From: Xanthomonas vesicatoria ATCC 35937
Lineage (GTDB): Bacteria; Pseudomonadota; Gammaproteobacteria; Xanthomonadales; Xanthomonadaceae
Length of the DNA: 64,000 bases
Assembly (NCBI RefSeq): GCF_001908725.1
Contig: NZ_CP018725.1
Span: 4,774,001 to 4,838,000 of the forward strand
Direction of reading: 5' to 3'
Shown here: positions 503 to 35,102 of the stretch, piece by piece
Position numbering within the stretch: position 1 is the first letter of the stretch
Layout: every line of letters begins with the position of its first letter
Notes under the pieces: model-generated
Seen by the model: the letters and a program-made list of their open reading frames with translations, nothing else
The model's database searches: none
What the model was told of the DNA's origin: nothing
Translations under genes and position numbers: made by a program

Positions 503-1689
503 CCCCGAACGCCACCCCGTTCCGTTTTCCCATGCGTACTGTTCTGACGGGCGCCGTGCTCGCGGTCGTGCTTGCTGCCTGCGGCGGTGGCGCTGCGCAG
601 ACCGGCGCGCCGCCACCGCCCAGCGTCAGCGTCGCTCCAGTGCTGATGAAGGAGATCAGCCAGTGGGACGAATTCAGCGGTCGCATCGAGCCGGTGCAAA
701 GCGTCGAGTTGCGTCCACGCGTGTCCGGTTACATCGACCAGGTGAACTACACCGAAGGCGCCGAAGTAAAGAAGGGCGATGTACTGTTCACCATCGACGA
801 TCGCAGCTACCGCGCCGATTTCGCCCGTGCCAACGCAGCACTGGTGCGGGCTCGCACGCAGGCTACGCTGGCGCGCAGCGAAGCGGCACGTGCCCGTAAA
901 CTTTCCGACCAGCAGGCCATTTCCACCGAGACCTGGGAGCAGCGGCGCGCTGCGGCCGACCAGGCCGATGCCGATCTGCTGGCCGCACAGGCGGCGGTGG
1001 ACACCGCCAAGCTCAATCTGGACTGGAGCCGCGTGCGCGCGCCCATCGACGGCCGCGCCGGGCGTGCGATGGTCACCGCCGGCAACCTGGTCACCGCCGG
1101 CGACAGCGCCAGCGTGCTGACCACGCTGGTGTCGTTGGACAAAGTGTTCGTCTACTTCGACGCCGACGAAGGCACCTTCTTGCGCTACTCGCAGATGGCC
1201 CGCAACGGCGAGCGTCCGGACGAACGCGGCGGCGAATTGCCGGTGCGCATCGGCCTGGTCGGCGAGCAAGGTTTTCCGCACGCCGGGCGCGTGGATTTCC
1301 TGGATAACCAGGTGACCCGCAGCACCGGCACCATCCGCGTGCGTGCGGTGCTCGACAACGCGCAGCGGCAGTTCACTCCGGGCCTGTATGCGCACGTGCA
1401 GTTGCTGGGCAGCGGCCAGTTCAAGGCCATGCTGGTCGACGAAAAAGCCGTGCTGACCGACCAGGACCGCAAGTACGTGTACGTGGTCGACAAGGATGGC
1501 AAGGCGCAGCGACGCGATGTAGAGCTCGGTCGCAGTGCCGACGGGCTGCGCATCGTGCGCAAGGGTCTGGCCGCCGGCGACCGTGTCGTGGTCGACGGTG
1601 TGCAGAAGATCTTCATGCCCGGCATGCCGGTCGATGCCAAGGCCGTGGCCATGGCGCCGGCGGCGGACAAACGTACCGCCTCGAACTGA
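499..1689 (+). CDS. RND efflux pump periplasmic adaptor lipoprotein
   Basis: 396 aa membrane-fusion protein of the HlyD/AcrA family. It would link the inner-membrane RND pump to the outer-membrane channel. The start ATG at 499 overlaps the previous stop; an alternative ATG at 532 also leaves a full signal. A hydrophobic stretch ends in lipobox LAAC with Cys28, so it is a lipoprotein in the periplasm. After it come the barrel-sandwich half (LRPRVSGYIDQVNYTEGAEV), a helical hairpin of about 80 residues, the second lipoyl half (NLDWSRVRAPIDGRAG) and a beta-barrel domain with FTPGLYAHVQL. About 100 bp downstream lies the RND permease, so the two are cotranscribed. Substrate is not shown by the sequence. 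Confidence 0.93.
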   Translation: MTPNATPFRFPMRTVLTGAVLAVVLAACGGGAAQTGAPPPPSVSVAPVLMKEISQWDEFSGRIEPVQSVELRPRVSGYIDQVNYTEGAEVKKGDVLFTIDDRSYRADFARANAALVRARTQATLARSEAARARKLSDQQAISTETWEQRRAAADQADADLLAAQAAVDTAKLNLDWSRVRAPIDGRAGRAMVTAGNLVTAGDSASVLTTLVSLDKVFVYFDADEGTFLRYSQMARNGERPDERGGELPVRIGLVGEQGFPHAGRVDFLDNQVTRSTGTIRVRAVLDNAQRQFTPGLYAHVQLLGSGQFKAMLVDEKAVLTDQDRKYVYVVDKDGKAQRRDVELGRSADGLRIVRKGLAAGDRVVVDGVQKIFMPGMPVDAKAVAMAPAADKRTASN

Positions 1690-1794
1690 TCCATCGCTGC
1701 ATCGCGCTTTCGACCCCCGGCCTGATGACCAGGCCGGCCCGGGGCCGCTGTGCCGCGCCGCCACCCGGCGGCAACCTCTTTCAGGACCACCCCA

Positions 1795-4700
1795 ATGGAC
1801 TTTTCCCGTTTTTTCATCGACCGGCCGATCTTTGCCGCGGTGCTGTCGATCATCATCTTCGCGGCCGGCCTGATCGCCATGCCGCTGTTGCCCATCAGCG
1901 AATACCCCGAAGTGGTACCGCCGAGCGTGCAGGTGCGCGCGGTGTATCCGGGCGCCAACCCCAAGGTCATTGCCGAGACCGTCGCCACGCCGCTTGAGGA
2001 GGCGATCAACGGCGTCGAAAACATGATGTACATGAAGTCGGTTGCCGGCTCCGATGGCGTGCTGATGGTCACCGTGACCTTCAAGCCGGGCACCGATCCG
2101 GACCAGGCGCAGGTGCAGGTGCAGAACCGCGTCAGCCAGGCGCAGGCGCGCCTGCCCGAAGACGTGCGCCGCCAGGGTGTGACCACGCAGAAGCAATCGC
2201 CGACGCTGACCATGGTGGTGCATCTGACCTCGCCCAAGGGCAAGTACGACTCGCTGTACCTGAGCAACTACGCCACCTTGAAGGTCAAGGACGAGTTGTC
2301 GCGCCTGCCGGGCGTGGGCCAGATCCGGGTGTTCGGTGCCGGCGATTACGCCATGCGCATCTGGCTGAATCCGGACAAGGTGGCTGCGCGCGGGCTCACC
2401 GCCAGCGACGTGGTTGCCGCCATTCGCGAGCAGAACGTGCAGGTCTCTGCCGGCCAGCTCGGTGCCGAACCGATGCCCAACAAGAGCGATTTCCTGCTGT
2501 CGATCAATGCGCAGGGCCGCCTCACCACCGAAGAAGAATTCGGCAACATCGTCATCCGCAGCGGCAATAGCGGCGAGATCGTGCGGTTGAGCGACGTGGC
2601 GCGTCTGGAACTGGGCGCCGGCAACTACACCTTGCGCTCGCAGCTGGACAACCAGAACGCGGTGGGCATGGGTGTGTTCCAGTCGCCCGGCGCCAATGCG
2701 ATCGAATTGTCCGACGCCGTGCGCGCCAAGATGGCCGAGCTGGAAAAGCAGTTCCCGCAGGACATGGCCTGGTCGGCTGCCTATGACCCCACCGTGTTCG
2801 TGCGCGACTCGATCAGCGCCGTGGTGCACACGCTGCTGGAGGCGGTGCTGTTGGTGGTGCTGGTGGTGATCCTGTTCCTGCAGACCTGGCGTGCCTCGAT
2901 CATTCCGTTGCTGGCGGTGCCGGTGTCGGTGGTCGGTACGTTCGCCGCGCTGTATCTGCTGGGGTTCTCGATCAACACCTTGAGCCTGTTCGGCCTGGTG
3001 CTGGCGATCGGCATCGTGGTCGACGATGCGATCGTGGTGGTGGAAAACGTCGAGCGCAACATCGAGGAAGGGCTCACCCCGCTGGCGGCCGCGCACCAGG
3101 CGATGCGCGAGGTGTCCGGGCCGATCATCGCCATCGCGCTGGTGCTGTGCGCGGTGTTCGTGCCGATGGCGTTCCTGTCGGGCGTGACCGGCCAGTTCTA
3201 CAAGCAGTTTGCAGTGACCATCGCCATCTCCACGGTGATCTCGGCGATCAATTCGCTGACCTTGTCGCCGGCACTGGCGGCCATGCTGCTCAAGGCGCAC
3301 GACGCGCCCAAGGATGGCCCGTCGCGGCTGATCGACCGTCTGTTCGGCTGGTTGTTCCGTCCGTTCAACCGCTTCTTCAACAGCAGCTCGCACAAGTACC
3401 AGGGTGCGGTGTCGCGGACGTTGAGCAAGCGCGGTGCGGTGTTCATGGTGTACCTGCTGCTGCTGGTGGGCGCCGGTTTCATGTTCAAAGTCGTACCGGG
3501 CGGTTTCATTCCGACCCAGGACAAGCTGTATCTGATTGCCGGTACCAAACTGCCGGAAGGCGCCTCGCTGGAGCGTACCAATGAGGTGATCCGCCAGATC
3601 AGCCAGATCGCGATGCAGACCGAAGGCGTGGATCACACGATCGCGTTCCCCGGGTTGAATCCGCTGCAGTTCACCAACACGCCCAACACCGGCACGGTGT
3701 TCATCACGCTCAAGCCGTTCAGTCAGCGCACCCGTAGCGCTGTGCAGATCAATGCCGAGCTCAACGCGCGTATCAGCCAGATCCAGCAGGGCTTTGCGTT
3801 CGCCTTCATGCCACCGCCGATTCTGGGCCTGGGGCAGGGCTCGGGCTACTCGCTGTATATCCAGGACCGTGCCGGTCTGGGCTATGGTCAGTTGCAGAGC
3901 GCGGTGAATGCGATGTCCGGTGCGATTTCGCAAACGCCGGGCATGCAGTTCCCGATCGGCACCTACCAGGCCAATGTGCCGCAGCTCGATGCCAAGGTCG
4001 ATCGCGACAAGGCCAAGGCGCAAGGCGTGCCGTTGACCAATCTGTTCGACACGCTGCAGACCTACCTGGGTTCGTCGTACATCAACGACTTCAATCGCTT
4101 CGGTCGCACCTATCAGGTGATCGCCCAGGCCGATGGAGAGTTCCGCGATAGCGTCGAAGACATCGCCAACCTGCGTACCCGCAATGCCAACGGCGACATG
4201 GTGCCGATCGGCAGCATGGTCACGCTGGGGCAGACCTACGGCCCGGATCCGGTGATTCGTTACAACGGCTACCCGGCCGCCGATCTGATCGGTGAAGCGG
4301 ACCCGCGCGTGCTCTCGTCCACCGAGGCGATGCACACGCTGGCCGGCATGGCACCCAAAGTGTTGCCCAATGGCATGAACATCGAATGGACCGACCTGAG
4401 CTATCAGCAGTCCACGCAGGGCAACTCGGCGCTGATCGTGTTTCCGATGGCGGTGTTGCTGGCGTTCCTGGTGCTGGCCGCGCTGTACGAAAGCTGGACC
4501 CTGCCGCTGGCGGTCATCCTGATCGTGCCGATGACCTTGCTGTCTGCGCTGTTCGGTGTGTGGCTCACCGGCGGCGACAACAATGTGTTCGTCCAGGTAG
4601 GCCTGGTGGTGCTGATGGGGCTGGCGTGCAAGAACGCGATCCTGATCGTTGAATTTGCCCGCGAGCTGGAGATGCACGGCAAGGGCATTGTCGAAGCTGC

Positions 4701-27497: not shown

Positions 27498-28901
27498 TCA
27501 ACGACTCAACTGCAACGCATCCCGATCCGCAGTAGCTGCTGCCAGCTCCGCACGCGCCGACGCAATCCGCGCCTGCGCATCAATCAAGCGCACGCGTGCG
27601 TCGTTGGCGGTTTCTTCGCGTTGGTTAACCAGGAAGAAGTCGCCCGAGCCCAGCTCGAAGCGTCTCCGTTCGGCGGCCGCCAGGCGGTCGGCGAGGCCGC
27701 GTTCTTCGTCGGCCATCTTGGCCAGTCGTTCGGCTGCGTTGAGCGAGATGACGATGGACTCTACTTCCACTGAAATCTGGTCGCGCAGGAAGCGACTGCG
27801 CTGATCCAGCGCTTCGATCTCCGCGCGCGCTTCGGCAACGCGGCCTTTGGCGGAGCGATTCTCCAGCGGCACGCTGAAACGAAAGCCAATGATCGCATCG
27901 GTTGGAGAGCGATTCGGCCCGCCCACACCGGGGTCGCCCAAGTCCTTGCTGACTTCGAAACTCACATCCAACCGCGGCTTCAGATCGTTCTGCGCCAGCA
28001 TCAGCCGGGCAGTGGCCTGGTCGATGCGAGTCAGCACGGCGCGGTAATCGGGCCGCTCCACCGGCGCGGTGATCTTGCTGGCACCGGCCAGGCCTTCGAG
28101 CGCGGAGGTATCGGCGGGCAGGCGCTCGCTGGAGACGATCAGCGGCATGCCGGCGTCGTCGCGCAGATACAGCGACAAAGCGTTGGCCGCGTTGGCGAAG
28201 TCCTGCTCCGATCGCACTACCAGCGCGCGCCGGCGCACCAGGTTCTGGTCGTTTTCGGTCAGCAGGATGGTCGGGCGCGCACCTAGCGTCACCTGCCGCG
28301 AAATCGCCGTGCGGCGGCGCTCTGCCAACGCCAGCAGGTCGTTGTACGCACGCAGTTTCAGGCCGGCTGCCACCCAGCTCTGGTAGGCATCCACGGCGCG
28401 CCGCTGCACGCCGATGGCCACCATCTCCGCTTCGTACTGCGCCACATTGATGTCGGCGCTGGCAACGCTGCGACGGGTACGGCGCTCGTCCACCACGCGG
28501 TCGCGCAGCAGCGCGTACAGCGCGCCGACCTTCACTTCGCCGCCGCGGTCGGTGTACGACTTGTCTTCGTAGACCGGAAACGCGCCACGCGAGGACCGGT
28601 AGCCGCCGTAGTAGTAGCCGCCGTTTTCCTCGAACGGACGCTTGACGCCGGTTTCGATGGTGCTGCCGTCGTAGTAACCAGCCTCGCGCGAGCGGCCTTC
28701 GAGATCGAACACGGTGTCGAACGCACCGTCGGCCGATATCCCTTTGCCTTCGGCCTGGCGGACTTTTGCCAGCGATTCGACGATCTGCGGCGCAGAGCGG
28801 GCTGAAGAGTGCAGCACTTCATCCAGCGTAAGCGGCGCGGCCTGTGCGAAGGCCGCACTGGGGCAAAGTGCGATCAGCAGGACAAACAGATGCCGCATCA
28901 T
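27498..28901 (-). CDS. TolC-family outer-membrane protein of the exporter operon
   Basis: 467 aa. ATG 28901 overlaps the HlyD stop. Signal peptide (MMRHLFVLLIALCPSAAFA, cleavage before QA). Then APLTLDEVLHSSARSAPQIVESLAKVRQAEGKG, the standard start of TolC helices, and two helical repeats (SADINVAQYEAEMVAIGVQRRAVDAYQSWVAAG and the C-terminal AAERRRFELGSGDFFLVNQREETANDARVRLIDAQ). An unusual Tyr/Gly-rich stretch (GGYYYGGYRSSRG) lies near residue 80. Not a lipoprotein. Forms the outer-membrane exit of the LysR-ABC-HlyD operon. Confidence 0.9.
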   Translation of the reverse strand: MMRHLFVLLIALCPSAAFAQAAPLTLDEVLHSSARSAPQIVESLAKVRQAEGKGISADGAFDTVFDLEGRSREAGYYDGSTIETGVKRPFEENGGYYYGGYRSSRGAFPVYEDKSYTDRGGEVKVGALYALLRDRVVDERRTRRSVASADINVAQYEAEMVAIGVQRRAVDAYQSWVAAGLKLRAYNDLLALAERRRTAISRQVTLGARPTILLTENDQNLVRRRALVVRSEQDFANAANALSLYLRDDAGMPLIVSSERLPADTSALEGLAGASKITAPVERPDYRAVLTRIDQATARLMLAQNDLKPRLDVSFEVSKDLGDPGVGGPNRSPTDAIIGFRFSVPLENRSAKGRVAEARAEIEALDQRSRFLRDQISVEVESIVISLNAAERLAKMADEERGLADRLAAAERRRFELGSGDFFLVNQREETANDARVRLIDAQARIASARAELAAATADRDALQLSR

Positions 28902-29983
28902 TTCTTGCCCGTCGTGTCGTCTTCGGATTTGTCGGCGGCAGGCTTGGCCTTGCCGTTGTCCTGCGTGGTCGCTGTGGGACGACGGCCGAATTCCAACGGG
29001 AAGTTGTTGAGCTGGCGCCACAGTTCGTAGCCCACCCGCACCGTCTCGCCCAGTACCCAGCCGCGCACCTTGCCGCCCTGGCGGGCGAATTCCTGCGCCG
29101 GCCATGCGGGTTTCCCCGGTAGCGGCTCGACCAGGATGCGGAACAACCCGTCCGGTGCGGCATTGGGGTCGATCGCGCGCACGCGGCCATCGAACATGCC
29201 GTGCGCTACCGACGGCCAGCCACTGAACTGGATCGCCGGCCAGCCTTCGAACTCCAGCCGCACCGGCCGGCCGGGGCGAATCAACGGTACGTCGCGGCCA
29301 TCGATATACAGCTCCACCGCGCGCTCCACGCGCTCGGGTGCGATCACCGCCAGCACGGTGCCGGGCGACACCATGGCACTGCCGCTGGCGGCATTGAGCT
29401 GCTGCACGCGCCCATCGCGCGGCGCGCGCACCAGCTGCGCGGACTGACGGTTCAGCTGGATATCGATGCGGGTCAATTTGGCGCGCGATTCGGCCAGCTT
29501 GGCATCGGCTTCAGCCACCTTGATCTGGGTCAGCTCGAAGTCGCGGCGGCCGGCCAGGCCTTCGGCAAGCAATTGTCGGCTGCGCTCCACGTCGATGCTG
29601 GCGACTGCGCGCGATTGCTGGATGGCGGCGATCTCTGCCGCGACCTGGGCGCGCTCGCTGGCAAGCCGGGTGAGCAGATCCGGGTCCAGGTCGCCGACGC
29701 GTGCGATCGGGTCGCCTTTGGACACGTGCTGGCCGTCGTGCACGTACCAGCGCTCGACACGGCCGGGTACGAAGGCGGTGACCTGCTGCTGGCGGTCGCC
29801 CGGGTCGAGCGAGACCACCTGGCCCTTGCCGCTGGCGGTTTGCACCCACGGTGCGAATGCAAGGATGGCACCTGCGATGGCGACGCCGATCAACAGCATC
29901 CAGGCCAGCGCCTTGGCGATGCTCGGTGGCCGCATCGAGGCCAGTGTGGGGAAGTGCGCGATCCGATCAGGGGCGTGCTGCAT
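28898..29983 (-). CDS. HlyD-family membrane-fusion protein
   Basis: 361 aa with one N-terminal TM helix (about 25-47), a lipoyl half (GQVVSLDPGDRQQQVTAFVPGRVERWYVHDGQHVSKGD), a helical hairpin (about 100-185) and the second half (QSAQLVRAPRDGRVQQLNAASGSAMVSPGTVL). The C-terminal tail after residue 330 is charged. Start overlaps the ABC gene by 17 bp, stop overlaps the TolC gene, so translation is coupled. Would bridge the inner-membrane ABC-like protein to the TolC channel as in type I secretion. Confidence 0.92.
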   Translation of the reverse strand: MQHAPDRIAHFPTLASMRPPSIAKALAWMLLIGVAIAGAILAFAPWVQTASGKGQVVSLDPGDRQQQVTAFVPGRVERWYVHDGQHVSKGDPIARVGDLDPDLLTRLASERAQVAAEIAAIQQSRAVASIDVERSRQLLAEGLAGRRDFELTQIKVAEADAKLAESRAKLTRIDIQLNRQSAQLVRAPRDGRVQQLNAASGSAMVSPGTVLAVIAPERVERAVELYIDGRDVPLIRPGRPVRLEFEGWPAIQFSGWPSVAHGMFDGRVRAIDPNAAPDGLFRILVEPLPGKPAWPAQEFARQGGKVRGWVLGETVRVGYELWRQLNNFPLEFGRRPTATTQDNGKAKPAADKSEDDTTGKK

Positions 29984-31655
29984 GGGTTGCCTCCTGGGTG
30001 GATGCGATCAGTTCCGCGCGCGTGGCGTAGCGCTGCTGGCGTTCGGGCTGCAGACGGAACCAGCCATCCAGGGTGATGTCTTCCGGCCTGCCGGTGCACA
30101 GCAACACCGTGGTGCCGGCCTCCTTCAGGCGGCCCAGCACGCAGGTCAGGCGTTCTGCAGGCAGCAGGTCATAGAGCTGCGACAACATCAGCACGCGCGG
30201 GCGCACCAGCAAGGCGTTGGCCAGCTTCAATGCCATCACTTCGCCGATCCACAGCGGGAAGCCGGACGCAGCCAGACGCGTGTCCAGGCCCTGCGGCAGC
30301 GCGGCGATGCGTGCGCGCAGCCCCACCGTGTCGATGGCTTCCAGCATGGCTTCGGAGCTCACGTCGGCCGAGGCCATGGCCAGGTACTCGCGGATGGTGA
30401 CTTCGACAATCGTCGGTCGATCGAGCACGGTGACTTCCGAGCGCAGCAGGTACATGTCGAAGGTGGCCAGGTCCGCGCCGCCCACCATGACCAAGCCGCG
30501 ATCCGGCACCACGTGGCGCTTGAGCACCATTGCCAGCAGCCGTTCGGCGCCGCCATCGGCCAGCGTCACCAAATGTTCGCCGGCGTTCAGAGTGAAATCG
30601 AAACGCGCGCCCTCGATCACCACGCCGTCCAGCCGCACCGCGCTGTTGCCGGGGATCTTGCCGGGCGCCACGACCGCACGTTCCTGCGGAATGGCATACA
30701 GCAGCGATAATTCTTCGGCGCTGGCGACCAAGTCGTAGAACGTGTCCAGATACGCGCCAAGCTGCGCGATGCCATAGAACACCGCGCTGAGGATCAGCTC
30801 GGCCGCCACCAACTGGCCGATCGACAGCTCGCCACGCAGGATCAGGCTGCCGCCCAGCGCCAACAGCGCGGCGCTCGCAACGGCGTACAGCAGCAGGAAC
30901 GCCACCGTCTGGGTGAAGCTGTAGCGGAAATGGCGCCGGTGCCGGTCGACGTAGGCCGCCGTGACCGCCTCGGAGCGATCCATTGCAAAATTGAGATGGC
31001 GGCTGGATTTGTAGAAACCGTTGGAGCCGCCGACGCTTTCCAGCCAATGCGCGGCATTGTGCTTGGCGTGGCTGAGCTCGACCGCGGTGCGAATCGAACC
31101 GCGCGACCAGATCATCCAGATTGCGAAGATGATCAGCAGCAGCAAGGCGTTGAAGCCGAGGAAAAACGGGTGGTAGAAGCTGGTGACAATGAGGCCCACC
31201 GCCGACTGCAATACGATGGTGAACGCGCCGATGGCCAGACTGGGCACTGCCTTTTGTACCACCACCAGATCGAAGTAGCGGTTGAACACATCGCCGCGGT
31301 TCTGGTCGGCGAAGAAGGGATTCTGCGCATGCACTGCGCGCACCGTGATCTCGGCGACCACGCGCGCAAACAGGCGGCGTTCGAACAGCGCCATCATCCA
31401 CACCCGCATCGCACTCAGGCATGCCACCAGCAGCAGCAGCCCCAGCAGCAGGCCAGACAACGTCCACAGCGGCGTTGGCAACGCGGTGTTGGCAACGCTG
31501 TTGATCAGCAGCTGCACCGAGATGGGCGTGGCCAGCGACAGCAGGCTGATCGCCACGCCGTACACCAGGGCAAGACGCACATACGGCATGTCCGGCCCGA
31601 CGATTTCCGCCAGCCAGCCCACCGCCTCCCGCCATCCGATCCGCTTTGCCGCCAT
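29967..31655 (-). CDS. ABC exporter-like membrane protein with degenerate nucleotide-binding domain
   Basis: 562 aa. ATG 31655 has GGAAG upstream. Residues 1-310 are an ABC exporter type 1 membrane domain with about six TM helices. Residues 335-540 occupy the place and order of the ATPase domain, but all catalytic motifs are lost: Walker A position reads TLADGGAERLLAMV (no GKS/T), the Q-loop Gln is missing (VTVLDRPTI), the signature LSGGQ is replaced by LWIGE (468-472), Walker B with LDE reads VLMLSQLYDLL (488-498), and the H-loop His is replaced (LLCTGRPED). The frame is intact and the fold-forming hydrophobic pattern is kept, so the loss seems selected, not decay. The next ABC gene (32734-34503) keeps every motif. 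Operon with HlyD and TolC. Substrate unknown. Confidence 0.85.
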   Translation of the reverse strand: MAAKRIGWREAVGWLAEIVGPDMPYVRLALVYGVAISLLSLATPISVQLLINSVANTALPTPLWTLSGLLLGLLLLVACLSAMRVWMMALFERRLFARVVAEITVRAVHAQNPFFADQNRGDVFNRYFDLVVVQKAVPSLAIGAFTIVLQSAVGLIVTSFYHPFFLGFNALLLLIIFAIWMIWSRGSIRTAVELSHAKHNAAHWLESVGGSNGFYKSSRHLNFAMDRSEAVTAAYVDRHRRHFRYSFTQTVAFLLLYAVASAALLALGGSLILRGELSIGQLVAAELILSAVFYGIAQLGAYLDTFYDLVASAEELSLLYAIPQERAVVAPGKIPGNSAVRLDGVVIEGARFDFTLNAGEHLVTLADGGAERLLAMVLKRHVVPDRGLVMVGGADLATFDMYLLRSEVTVLDRPTIVEVTIREYLAMASADVSSEAMLEAIDTVGLRARIAALPQGLDTRLAASGFPLWIGEVMALKLANALLVRPRVLMLSQLYDLLPAERLTCVLGRLKEAGTTVLLCTGRPEDITLDGWFRLQPERQQRYATRAELIASTQEATHAARP

Positions 31656-31732: not shown

Positions 31733-31747
31733 ATAGGATTTTCCTAT
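31733..31747 (-). promoter_or_regulatory. OxyR/LysR-type operator ATAG-N7-CTAT
   Basis: ATAGGATTTTCCTAT: two perfect 6-bp arms around TTT that match the OxyR half-operator ATAG-N7-CTAT. The site covers the stop codon of the LysR gene and lies 78 bases upstream of the exporter ATG, a usual distance for a LysR activator site. Another CTATAG is at 31700-31705. Confidence 0.5.
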
Positions 31748-32643
31748 GCGGCTGCGGCACGCAGCAGGTTGGCGATCAAACCGAACGCTGGCGCACGTCC
31801 CGCGCCTTGCCGCCATAGCAGTCCAATCTCCCGGTAATACGGGCCGCCCTTGACCGGGCGCACCACCACATCGTCGCCTTCGCGGATTTCCTGGCGTACA
31901 TACAGGTCCGGCAGCAGCGCCAACCCCATGCCCATGCCTGCCATCTGTCGGATCGCATCCAGACTGGTTCCTTCGTAATCGCGCAGCACATGGGCGCCCA
32001 CGTCCATCGCGATCGCGGCCACCTGTTCGGCCAATCGATATTCCGGCATCAAGGTGAGCAGGTTGGCGCCGCGCAGATCGGCAGGGGTGATGTAGCGTTT
32101 GCTGCGCAGCGGGTGATCGGCGGCCATGGTCACGTGCAGCGGCTCCCGGAACAGCCGCTCGCTGTGCAGGCTGCGTCCGGCCACCGGCAATTGCGCCAGA
32201 ATCAGATCGTGCACGCCATTGGCCAGATCGCTGGCCAGCACCGTCGGCAGGCCTTCGCGCACGTGCACGCGCAGGGCCGGGTGCTCGCGGTGCAACCGCG
32301 CGACCAGGCTGGGCATCAGGTAGGCGCCCAGCGTGGGCGAGACCCCGAGCCGGATGGTGCCGATCAAGGTATCGGCCGCGGTAGTGCGTACGTCTTCCAG
32401 ATCGGCGACATCGAGCAGGATGCTGCGCGCGCGGTCGAGCAGGTCGCGCCCGAGCGGGGTCAGGATGGCCGGCACGCCGCGCTCGAACAGCGGCGCGCCG
32501 ATGATGGTCTCCAGTGCACGGATCTGTTGCGACAGCGAAGGCTGCGACACGCCCATCTGTTCGGCGGCACGGGTGAAGCTGCCGGTGTCGGCGAGTGCGG
32601 TGAAGTAGCTCAGTTGGCGAAAGGTGGTCTTGGGGCGTGGCAT
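31744..32643 (-). CDS. LysR-family regulator (OxyR-like sequence, no redox cysteines)
   Basis: 299 aa from ATG 32643. N-terminal helix-turn-helix FRQLSYFTALADTGSFTRAAEQMGVSQPSLSQQIRALETIIGAPLFER is typical LysR; the effector domain (GTIRLGVSPTLGAYLMPSLVARL) and the segment SLDAIRQMAGMGMGLALLPDLYV recall OxyR. The protein contains no cysteine, so it cannot work as an OxyR disulfide switch. It lies directly upstream of the exporter operon on the same strand with 88 bases between them. Confidence 0.9.
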   Translation of the reverse strand: MPRPKTTFRQLSYFTALADTGSFTRAAEQMGVSQPSLSQQIRALETIIGAPLFERGVPAILTPLGRDLLDRARSILLDVADLEDVRTTAADTLIGTIRLGVSPTLGAYLMPSLVARLHREHPALRVHVREGLPTVLASDLANGVHDLILAQLPVAGRSLHSERLFREPLHVTMAADHPLRSKRYITPADLRGANLLTLMPEYRLAEQVAAIAMDVGAHVLRDYEGTSLDAIRQMAGMGMGLALLPDLYVRQEIREGDDVVVRPVKGGPYYREIGLLWRQGAGRAPAFGLIANLLRAAAA

Positions 32644-32733
32644 GGTCACATCGGTGCGTCGGGTCGCTCGGAGTCGCACTGCCGGCCAGGCCGGCGCGCG
32701 AACGTGTCGCCCGCAGCGGGCGTCAACCAGCCA

Positions 32734-34503
32734 TCATTGATCGATGAATTGCAGCCGCGCCAGCTCGGCATACAGGCCGCCTTCGGCGATCAACTGCGCA
32801 TGCGTACCCTGCGCCACGATGCGGCCGGCCTCCATGACCACGATGCGGTCGGCCTTGAGCACGGTCGCCAGCCGATGCGCGATGACCAGCGTGGTGCGGC
32901 CTTCCATCAGCCGGTCCAGTGCTTGCTGCACGGCACGCTCACTCTGCGCATCCAGCGCGCTGGTGGCTTCGTCCAGCAGCAGGATGGGCGCGTCCTTGAG
33001 CAACGCACGCGCGATCGCCACGCGTTGCTGCTGGCCGCCGGACAGGCGCGTGCCGCGTTCGCCCAGTTCGCTGGCGTAGCCTTGGGGTAGGGCACGAATG
33101 AAGGCGTCTGCCTCTGCTGCCGTTGCCGCCGCCTCCACCTCGGCGTCGCTGGCCTCCAGGCGGCCGTAGCGGATGTTGTCGGCGGCACTGGCGGCGAACA
33201 GGGTCGGTTGTTGCGGGACTAGCGCGATGTTCTCGCGCAAGTGCACCGGGTCGGTTTGGCGTAGGTCCACCTCGTCGATGCGCACACTGCCGCTGGCCGG
33301 GTCGTGGAAGCGCAGCAGCATGGCCAGCACCGTACTCTTGCCGGCACCGGACGGCCCGACCAGGGCGACGGTCTCGCCGGGGCTGACGTGCAGGTCGAAT
33401 CCGTCCAGCGCTGGTGCGTCGGGGCGTTGCGGATAATGAAATACCACCTGGTCGAAATGGATCGCCCCCCGCAGCGATTGCGGCAACGGCGTTGGCACGG
33501 CCGGGGCAACGATCGCCGGTTGTTCGTCGAGCAGTTCGCCAACCCGGCCCATGCCGCCGGCGGCACGTTGCAGCTCGTTCCACACCTCGGCCAGCGCGCC
33601 GACCGAACCGCCGCCGATCAACGCATACAGCACGAACTGGCCCAGCGTGCCGGGTGTCATGCGGCCGGACACCACATCGTGCGCGCCCAGCCACAGCACG
33701 CCAACGATGGCACCGAAGATCAGCATGATGGCGATGGCGGTCACGGCGGCCTGAGTGCGGATTCGCAGCCGTGCGGTATCGATCGCCGCAAACAAAGCCT
33801 GGCTGAAACGCTGGCTTTCGTAACGCTCGCGCGCATGCGCTTGCACCGTACGTACCGCGCCCAGCGTTTCGGCTGCCAGCGTATTGGCGTCGGCTACACG
33901 GTCCTGGCTGGCGCGCGAGATCTTTTGTAGCCGGCGCGCGCCCAGCACGATCGGCAGCACCGCCAGCGGAATGCCGATCAAGGTGAATCCAGCAAGGCGC
34001 GGGCTGGTCACGAACAACATCACCATGCTGCCGATCACCGTCACCGAGCTGCGCAACGCCACCGACATGGTGGTGCCGATCAACCCGCGCAGCAGCTCGC
34101 TGTCGGCCGACAGTCGCGACACCAGCTCTCCGCTACGGCTGCGATCATGAAAGCCGGCATCCAGGCTGATCAGGTGCGCATACAGGCGGCCGCGCAGGTC
34201 GGCGACGACCTTTTCGCCCAACAATGCTACGAAGTAAAAACGCGCCGCGGTGGCCAGAGCCAGCACCACCGCCACCGCAAACAACAGTGCGAAGGCCTGG
34301 TTGATCTGCGTGCCGCCCGAGAAGCCGTGGTCGATCATGCGCTTGACCGCGGCCGGCAGGCTCAACGTGGCCGCCGAAGACACTGCCAGGGCGATCAGCC
34401 ATGCGGCGAACAGGCCGCGTTGACGTTGCACAAACGGCCACAAGGTGCGCAGGCTGCCAAGCTTCCGCAATGGGTTGGGCCTGGCGGCGGCTGGCTGATT
34501 CAT
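32734..34503 (-). CDS. ABC exporter, MsbA-like fused permease-ATPase
   Basis: 589 aa from ATG 34503, which overlaps the yigZ-like stop by 4 bases. Six TM helices (residues about 15-320), then a complete ATPase domain: Walker A GPSGAGKST, Q-loop VPQQPTLF, signature LSGGQQQRVAIARALL, Walker B ILLLDEATSALD and H-loop VIAHRLATV. A homodimeric exporter of lipids or drugs. Substrate not shown. It is an internal control for the degenerate exporter three genes away. Confidence 0.94.
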   Translation of the reverse strand: MNQPAAARPNPLRKLGSLRTLWPFVQRQRGLFAAWLIALAVSSAATLSLPAAVKRMIDHGFSGGTQINQAFALLFAVAVVLALATAARFYFVALLGEKVVADLRGRLYAHLISLDAGFHDRSRSGELVSRLSADSELLRGLIGTTMSVALRSSVTVIGSMVMLFVTSPRLAGFTLIGIPLAVLPIVLGARRLQKISRASQDRVADANTLAAETLGAVRTVQAHARERYESQRFSQALFAAIDTARLRIRTQAAVTAIAIMLIFGAIVGVLWLGAHDVVSGRMTPGTLGQFVLYALIGGGSVGALAEVWNELQRAAGGMGRVGELLDEQPAIVAPAVPTPLPQSLRGAIHFDQVVFHYPQRPDAPALDGFDLHVSPGETVALVGPSGAGKSTVLAMLLRFHDPASGSVRIDEVDLRQTDPVHLRENIALVPQQPTLFAASAADNIRYGRLEASDAEVEAAATAAEADAFIRALPQGYASELGERGTRLSGGQQQRVAIARALLKDAPILLLDEATSALDAQSERAVQQALDRLMEGRTTLVIAHRLATVLKADRIVVMEAGRIVAQGTHAQLIAEGGLYAELARLQFIDQ

Positions 34504-35102
34504 GCGGCTTCCGGTATTGAGAGATGGACACGATTGCGAGTGGCGTCGCACAGGCGCGTTTTCAAGCCAGCAAGGTGATCTGCAGGCAGTTGCACGCGTA
34601 GCGCTGCGCCTGTGGCGTCGAACTGTTCGTCCAGCTTGTCGACATGGAATGCGGCGAGTGCCGCGTGCACCAGTCCCAGATCGTCGAACTGGCATCGCAG
34701 GTCGAGCAGGGTCAGCGCAACCAGCGGTCGCCGCGTGGCCAGACGCAGGCATTCGGCCGCGGTATCGCCATAAGCGCGCACCAACCCACCGGCGCCGAGC
34801 TTGATCCCGCCATACCAGCGCGTCACCACCACCACCACGCGATCAAAGCCTTGGCCATCGATGGCCGCCAGAATCGGCCGCCCCGCCGTGCCACTGGGCT
34901 CGCCATCGTCGCTGGACCGGTATTCCTGCCCGAATCGGTAGGCCCAGCAGTTGTGCGTGGCATCCGGCACCGACACGCGCTGCATGATCTCCAGCGCCTG
35001 GGCGGAAGAATCGAGTGCAGCAGCATGGGCTAGAAAGCGACTGTGCTTGATGTCCAGGCTGTAGTGCGCGTCAGCGGCGAGGGTATCGAGCATCGCCGCC
35101 AT
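34500..35102 (-). CDS. YigZ/IMPACT family protein
   Basis: 200 aa from ATG 35102; ATG 35093 or TTG 35126 are possible. Visible: IKHSRFLAHAAALD, YRSSDDGEPSGTAGRPIL (family signature, SDDGEPxGTAGxPIL) and VVVVTRWYGGIKLGAGGLVRAYGDTAAECL, all strong YigZ hallmarks, then a C-terminal DUF1949-like domain. Biochemical role unclear in bacteria. Stop overlaps the ABC start (ATGA), so the two genes are cotranscribed. Confidence 0.93.
   Translation of the reverse strand: MAAMLDTLAADAHYSLDIKHSRFLAHAAALDSSAQALEIMQRVSVPDATHNCWAYRFGQEYRSSDDGEPSGTAGRPILAAIDGQGFDRVVVVVTRWYGGIKLGAGGLVRAYGDTAAECLRLATRRPLVALTLLDLRCQFDDLGLVHAALAAFHVDKLDEQFDATGAALRVQLPADHLAGLKTRLCDATRNRVHLSIPEAA

Follow-up and report, generated by a model that had tools for sequence, protein, structure and literature searches.

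An ABC exporter-like protein without an ATP site, encoded with HlyD and TolC partners in Xanthomonas vesicatoria and its relatives

Results

The locus and its genes

We analysed a stretch of 64,000 nucleotides from the genome of Xanthomonas vesicatoria ATCC 35937 (contig NZ_CP018725.1, positions 4,774,001 to 4,838,000), which is called the window and in which positions are counted from its first letter. It carries a gene for an ATP-binding cassette (ABC) exporter subunit whose nucleotide-binding domain (NBD) has lost the ATP site, a loss that is common to a whole clade of proteins, called the dead family below. A scan of genome contigs gave 38 loci with this gene: 29 from Xanthomonas, eight from Sphingomonadales (Sphingomonas 2, Novosphingobium 3, Croceicoccus 2 and Sphingobium 1) and one from a gammaproteobacterial metagenome-assembled genome. 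The genes at the window locus are as follows.

29967..31655, minus strand: ATPase-dead ABC exporter subunit, 562 amino acids (aa), with six long transmembrane (TM) helices and a degenerate NBD
28898..29983, minus strand: periplasmic adaptor of the HlyD family, 361 aa, with 17 nucleotides in common with the ABC gene; present in 38/38 loci
27498..28901, minus strand: TolC-family outer membrane protein (OEP); present in 38/38 loci
31744..32679, minus strand: LysR-type regulator, upstream and in the same direction, OxyR-like by score, with zero cysteines
32734-34752: canonical MsbA-related exporter, two genes upstream of the dead ABC gene

On the minus strand, transcription runs from LysR through ABC and HlyD to the TolC-family gene. 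The open reading frame (ORF) of the latter is open up to 29105, and its likely start is at about 28901, where the HlyD gene ends. An earlier note on this DNA had placed the canonical exporter three genes away from the dead one; the distance is two genes, with the LysR gene between them.

The only Pfam match of the dead ABC protein is ABC_membrane (PF00664; 32.2 bits, cut-off 28), and a match to ABC_tran (PF00005) was not found in its 562 aa at E <= 0.1. The canonical neighbour scores 118.8 bits with ABC_tran and 865.5 bits with TIGR02204. The best NCBIfam model for the dead protein is that of HlyB (TIGR01846), with 102.4 bits, far below the cut-off of 725.55, and TIGR03375 gives 82.5 bits against a cut-off of 693.1. 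The predicted monomer has the complete fold of an ABC exporter subunit (pLDDT 88.1) and its structural matches are full-length: each of the 50 exporter rows listed aligns over 522-556 residues. By these comparisons the dead family is homologous to ABC exporters and has known partners. It resembles the type I secretion exporters (HlyB, LapB/LssB, PrtD) in its ABC_membrane domain and in the HlyD and TolC genes of the same operon, but it has no ATP site and lies far below the cut-offs of their families. The label "type I secretion type" in the earlier note is therefore apt for structure and operon and fails by score (102 bits against the HlyB cut-off of 725).

Loss of the ATP site

In the alignment with canonical exporters, the dead ABC protein is altered at the A-loop tyrosine, Walker A, the Q-loop, the signature, Walker B, the catalytic glutamate and the H-loop. 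Canonical residues were counted in a dead set of 241 proteins, which consists of the window protein, the best 120 of 2045 protein matches and the best 120 of 2778. The replaced motifs of the window protein are listed here.

30534..30563, minus strand: Walker A position, residues 365-374, LADGGAERLL; lysine in 0/241
30414..30428, minus strand: Q-loop position, residues 410-414, VLDRP; glutamine in 0/241
30240..30254, minus strand: signature position, residues 468-472, LWIGE; one glycine left
30168..30191, minus strand: Walker B position, residues 489-496, LMLSQLYD; aspartate in 1/241
30078..30101, minus strand: H-loop position, residues 519-526, LCTGRPED

The A-loop aromatic residue and the first signature glycine are each kept in 0/241, the last glycine of the P-loop is lost in 241/241, and the catalytic glutamate is kept in 9/241. 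The counts for the H-loop histidine (2/241) and the second signature glycine (119/241) depend on the alignment, in which these columns slip by 1-2 residues in some rows. Since none of the 241 proteins keeps the Walker A lysine, the loss of the motif is not a matter of chance. The substitutes also recur across the wider set; examples are V-Q-R in place of Walker A, L-D-R-P for the Q-loop, P-L-S-x-x-E for the signature, N/S-Q-L-F-D for Walker B and F-S-N-R for the H-loop. At the P-loop position the predicted model has a plain strand and helix.

These results agree with the earlier description of a full-length frame with substitutes at the motif columns, as judged against the canonical neighbour. 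The replacement of five motifs stated there was borne out and extends to the A-loop aromatic residue, with the qualification that the second signature glycine survives in LWIGE. The lost motifs and the HlyD-TolC context are common to the clade. No homolog in which all the motifs are intact was found among the relatives checked: there was none in 361 proteins (the best 120 of each listing and the window protein), and none among the 14 matches of a search of 369 genomes with a profile of the sister family described below, in which three candidates were scored per genome. Many named members of the dead family bear the label "ABC transporter ATP-binding protein", which is misleading.

Sister family and proposed course of the decay

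The sister family was found from locus L053, the protein of which is listed as Methylotuvimicrobium, and the best 120 of 1910 matches were checked. Where named, its members are mostly from methanotrophs, and some are called "peptidase domain-containing ABC transporter"; they are about 700 aa long and most have an extra N-terminal stretch. The sister family shares with the dead family its signature residues in the transmembrane domain (TMD), the HlyD and OEP partners (present in 2/2 loci checked) and the loss of the Q-loop glutamine (0/120), the H-loop histidine (0/120) and mostly the signature (first glycine in 3/120). It differs in that nearly all members keep the A-loop aromatic residue (116/120), the Walker A lysine (118/120) and the Walker B aspartate (118/120). 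The catalytic glutamate is present in 7/120, and these seven proteins have neither the Q-loop and H-loop residues nor a canonical signature. Two proteins, P0321 (partial, without an NBD) and P0263 (misaligned in the NBD), were both counted as losses.

A tree was built from TMD columns only, with 66 hand-picked rows (33 labelled dead, 19 sister and 14 canonical). The dead and sister rows are split from the 14 canonical rows, type I secretion exporters included, with support of 100/100. Thirty-two dead rows form one branch (100/100), and the dead group that includes L054, a row of unsure position, has only 69/24. L054, although labelled dead, is intermediate: it has a lysine and the Walker B aspartate at the aligned columns and scores 29.8 bits with ABC_tran (cut-off 25). 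At the other end, the NBD of L135-L138 is eroded further, the total length being 513-526 aa, and HlyD still follows. Decay of the ATP site looks stepwise, because the sister family has the ATP-binding residues but no Q-loop or H-loop residues and mostly no signature or catalytic glutamate. By parsimony, hydrolysis would have been lost first and nucleotide binding second; the tree by itself does not root the series.

It is conceivable that the dead NBD binds a nucleotide or another ligand in an altered pocket and that binding, rather than hydrolysis, gates transport. A binding-gated state like that suggested by the sister family, with its lysine, aspartate and aromatic residue and mostly without the residues for hydrolysis, may have preceded the dead one, and the conserved substitutes are specific to the dead NBD. 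On the other hand, the P-loop lysine, the last P-loop glycine and the A-loop aromatic residue are absent from every protein of the dead set, and the model shows the plain strand and helix in their place. We consider binding-gated transport improbable, a little more so than the partner ATPase discussed below.

Conserved polar residues of the membrane domain

Residues of the TMD were tallied in 33 dead, 19 sister and 31 canonical rows (25 distinct canonical proteins). The following polar residues stand out.

30798..30800, minus strand: Glu286, part of GQLVAAE and close to where TM6 ends on the periplasmic side; dead 33/33, sister 19/19, canonical 0/31
31206..31208, minus strand: Gln150, in TM3; dead 33/33, sister 19/19, canonical 1/31
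31170..31172, minus strand: His162, in YHP of the periplasmic TM3-TM4 turn; dead 33/33, sister 18/19, canonical 0/31
31512..31514, minus strand: Gln48, in TM1; dead 33/33, sister 19/19, canonical 5/31

Together with Lys198, Trp204, Gln249 and Tyr307, they are fixed or nearly fixed in the dead and sister rows and occur in at most 5/31 canonical rows. In the larger sets, YHP is found in 241/241 dead and 120/120 sister proteins and a motif of the GQLVAAE type in 240/241 and 120/120. Gln48, Gln150, His162 and Glu286 are retained in L135-L138 despite the shrunken NBD, and some of the loci L054 and L135-L138 differ at Lys198, Trp204 or Gln249. The helices of the model, read with the topology usual for exporters, would place Glu286 in the periplasmic half of TM6, Gln150 in that of TM3 and Gln48 in that of TM1, with His162 at the TM3-TM4 turn.

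These residues bear on the idea that the protein is a passive or gated conduit, a scaffold or a sensor that docks HlyD and TolC, with the substrate running down its gradient or entering from the periplasm. An NBD devoid of both binding and hydrolysis residues fits the loss of any powered cycle, and the HlyD and TolC partners are constant. However, constraint is strongest on the membrane domain, as shown in the next section, and polar residues are fixed in it, some of them within hydrophobic helices; a mere scaffold has no obvious need of them. We therefore regard a conduit or scaffold as unlikely, but as the most credible of the alternatives to an exporter driven by an ion gradient.

Selection and domain constraint

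The ratio of nonsynonymous to synonymous substitution rates (dN/dS, omega) was obtained, as the earlier note had proposed, by comparing the window with 17 of the 29 Xanthomonas loci. The ABC gene has a median omega of 0.078 (TMD 0.064; NBD 0.095, range 0.060-0.198), which means strong purifying selection; the medians of the HlyD, canonical exporter and LysR genes are 0.061, 0.058 and 0.073, respectively. Judged from its omega of 0.095, the dead NBD is maintained by purifying selection, somewhat looser than that on the TMD.

At greater depth, the TMD is better conserved than the NBD in 667/667 within-family pairs of the dead and sister families, as against 2/97 pairs of two canonical families. 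In the dead set (496 pairs) the mean pairwise identity is 0.554 for the TMD and 0.362 for the NBD, and in the sister set (171 pairs) it is 0.621 for the TMD and 0.423 for the NBD. The corresponding values are 0.396 and 0.476 in the canonical LssB/LapB set, where the NBD is higher in 89/91 pairs, and 0.451 and 0.600 in MsbA-related proteins, where it is higher in 6/6. L107 (the window's own protein) and L114 (inner stop) were omitted from this comparison and from the tally of TMD residues above, and L054 from the dead-group pairs. These identities show that constraint has shifted to the membrane domain in the dead and sister families.

A frameshift or sequencing error was rejected as the origin of the lost motifs, in agreement with the earlier view that the gene is no sequencing artefact: the window ORF is open over 562 aa without an assembly frameshift, and 36/38 homologous loci are open from the start of the match. 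Broken copies do occur in 2/38 loci (L025 and L035, X. axonopodis and X. phaseoli records), and among the 35 Xanthomonas genomes searched, all of which have the gene, it is full-length and unbroken in 32, partial in one (G744) and in separate pieces in two (G862 and G869), as might be seen if the gene were a decaying pseudogene. This explanation is contradicted for the family as a whole by the omega of the NBD, which stays within 0.060-0.198 in all 17 comparisons, by the open frames and by the extent of the clade, which spans alpha- and gammaproteobacteria with conserved residues of its own. We give it almost no credence.

The three-gene unit and the search for a partner ATPase

In addition to the 38 scan loci, the further loci L072-L093 have ABC and HlyD in 22/22 and TolC in 20/22 by BLAST, the other two having it by Pfam as OEP. 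The constant unit, seen in 60/60 loci, is ABC-HlyD-TolC, and LysR is not part of it. The LysR-ABC-HlyD-TolC operon of the earlier note holds for these three genes; linkage of LysR is confined to Xanthomonas and some relatives, and among the scan loci it stands next to the cassette in L027 and all 29 from Xanthomonas. Elsewhere, a LysR gene beside the cassette is OxyR-like in L072, L074, L084 and L089, BLAST-similar in L086 and NhaR-like in L081. Other neighbours of the cassette differ among loci, except in two Novosphingobium plasmids.

The energy might come from an ATPase encoded elsewhere, either a canonical half-transporter in a heterodimer or a separate ATPase acting on the dead NBD. Exporters that are heterodimers with one degenerate site are common (PMC7756269). 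The MsbA-related gene lies two genes away in 28/29 Xanthomonas loci, and ORFs that carry ABC-type motifs or weakly resemble this canonical exporter occur near the cassette as single cases in L077, L080, L087 and L088, adjacent to the ABC gene in L087. Other single cases upstream of the cassette are a T2SSE ATPase in L075 and an AAA ATPase in L090. However, the MsbA-related gene is missing from 9/9 non-Xanthomonas scan loci and was rejected as a partner, its linkage being confined to Xanthomonas. No constant neighbouring ATPase gene was found in the loci read, in which window neighbours were mapped in 38 loci, eight plasmid records were read by annotation, and ORFs were scanned for ATPase motif patterns in eight of the nine non-Xanthomonas scan loci and 14 further loci. 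Moreover, heterodimeric exporters such as TM287/288, TmrAB and BmrCD have one catalytic site, and their degenerate site can hold ATP. A composite site needs Walker A of one half and the signature of the other; the dead half supplies neither, so that it would form no complete ATP site with a canonical half and the usual heterodimer solution fails. We regard a partner ATPase as quite unlikely.

Discussion

A proposed exporter without ATP

Of the three ways out named in the earlier note, namely another energy source, a partner ATPase or a function other than transport, the sequence comparisons argue against a heterodimeric partner and favour another source of energy. We propose that the cassette would be a tripartite exporter, composed of an ABC-fold protein in the inner membrane, the HlyD adaptor and the TolC channel. 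The inner-membrane protein is probably a homodimer, with which the single copy per genome in nearly all matches fits (every candidate was scored only in the search of 35 Xanthomonas genomes), and it would neither bind nor hydrolyse ATP. The NBD fold is probably retained as a scaffold, through which the two halves are joined and the coupling-helix contacts are made. The membrane domain would have become the working part, in which a clade-specific set of residues, Gln48, Gln150, His162, Gln249 and Glu286, may bind protons or another ion and give them off again. An ion gradient would then power export, and the protein would be a secondary transporter with the fold of an ABC exporter. We consider this reading the most probable one, at close to an even chance. 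The fuller account, in which hydrolysis was lost first and nucleotide binding second, the NBD is shrinking in some lineages and a polar path of Glu286, Gln150 and His162 couples export to the ion gradient, is held somewhat more tentatively. The substrate may be a small molecule, a guess prompted by the linkage to LysR.

The ion gradient is the best reading of the drive because the TM6 glutamate and TM3 glutamine recall LmrA, and because MsbA and LmrA provide precedents without an NBD. MsbA without its NBD is reported to export ethidium with a pH gradient (PMC4979069); LmrA without its NBD is reported to carry ion currents under ion gradients, and the ion-binding Glu314 of LmrA lies in TM6 near amide residues of TM3 (PMC6155054). 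Glu286, conserved in TM6, and Gln150 in TM3 recall this arrangement by the helices in which they lie. Those proteins are laboratory truncations or active with ATP, whereas the dead family has lost its ATP site in nature.

Several observations weigh against an ion-driven exporter. In the same reports, ethidium transport by LmrA required ATP hydrolysis and the current started by ATP was absent in NBD-less LmrA (PMC6155054), and MsbA without its NBD was less efficient than the whole protein (PMC4979069). The ATP requirement of LmrA and the lower efficiency of truncated MsbA make these precedents only partial. Among the conserved residues, Gln249 is changed to histidine in L054 and L135, Lys198 is lost in L136-L138, and the fixed residues of the TMD may have another role, in relation to the adaptor, the substrate or folding. 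The inversion of constraint is also weak at shallow depth: dN for TMD and NBD is 0.036 and 0.057 here and 0.029 and 0.037 in the canonical neighbour. Since the canonical neighbour shows no NBD-first conservation at this depth, the contrast between the families belongs to deep divergence.

The proposed exporter resembles EmrAB-TolC in its adaptor and TolC architecture and in a drive by a gradient, which for the dead family is a proposal. The inner-membrane part of EmrAB has the MFS fold, whereas that of the dead family matches ABC_membrane above the cut-off. ABC exporters are defined by ATP hydrolysis, and a large natural clade that has their fold and operon but no engine would demonstrate a use of this fold without ATP. 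It would also make the claim of ion-driven ABC membrane domains directly testable. Along with the sister family, it offers a natural series from ATP-binding through dead to shrinking NBDs. If it is ion-driven, we know of no earlier natural example of a secondary transporter with the ABC exporter fold. The earlier note knew of no described system of this kind, and none was found among the papers listed in searches of open-licence literature, judged mostly from titles and the first lines of abstracts.

Distribution of the family

The nearest loci, in X. pisi, X. dyei and others, encode ABC proteins 97-98% identical to that of the window. In the taxonomic family of the window genome the gene was found in 9/198 genomes, every one in Xanthomonas. 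Evenly drawn samples gave matches in 8/274 genomes of the class (E <= 1e-60) and 11/398 of the phylum (E <= 1e-50), the window genome included in both; L053, L054 and L063 among these matches are sister or intermediate and not fully dead. Fifteen plasmid records of Sphingomonadales have the gene, with most of the protein covered in 14. In Novosphingobium aromaticivorans DSM 12444 the cassette (SARO_RS19820, SARO_RS19815 and SARO_RS19810) is found on plasmid pNL2. The window protein is 79-84% identical to the listed Sphingomonas proteins, and the two Xanthomonas rows of the tree are nested in a Sphingomonadales branch (100/100). Together with the lack of the gene in the other genera sampled from the family, this identity and nesting suggest horizontal transfer.

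Regulators, adaptors and neighbouring genes

The LysR protein of the window (31744-32679) and those of L074, L084, L089 and L072 score best with OxyR, below its cut-off. A redox-sensing OxyR was rejected for the window protein, in which the lack of any cysteine makes a thiol sensor unlikely. The NhaR-like gene of L081 (6526-7452; 176.5 bits, cut-off 219) is divergent from the cassette, and genes BLAST-similar to it adjoin the cassette in L082 and L083. A link to sodium or pH is possible.

The model of the HlyD adaptor is weak (pLDDT 75.5, pTM 0.46; 18 rows). In Foldseek its best rows come from adaptor chains in entries for MacA, AcrAB-TolC, EmrAB-TolC, ZneB and MexA, and since their TM-scores are below 0.5 by query length, the structure does not tell the pump type of the adaptor. 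A C-terminal stretch, W-R-x-x-N-x-F-P (residues 322-329 of the window's adaptor), is invariant among the HlyD proteins of both the dead and the sister cassettes (18/18 rows).

The two Novosphingobium plasmids with a common neighbourhood, L073 and L093, have phosphomannomutase, folD and an MFS pump with its own HlyD near the cassette. In the Sphingobium plasmid pHAL16 (L072), a DUF2309 gene (1362-3914) immediately precedes the cassette and has the same orientation, and in another Sphingobium plasmid (L090) the His-Xaa-Ser radical SAM genes hxsB and hxsC (1473-4102) lie a few genes upstream. Two long, mutually similar ORFs with ABC-type motifs stand upstream of the cassette in L087 (10313-13246, 977 aa) and L088 (11852-15016, 1054 aa), which come from two genomes of one family, and possibly encode a repair ATPase.

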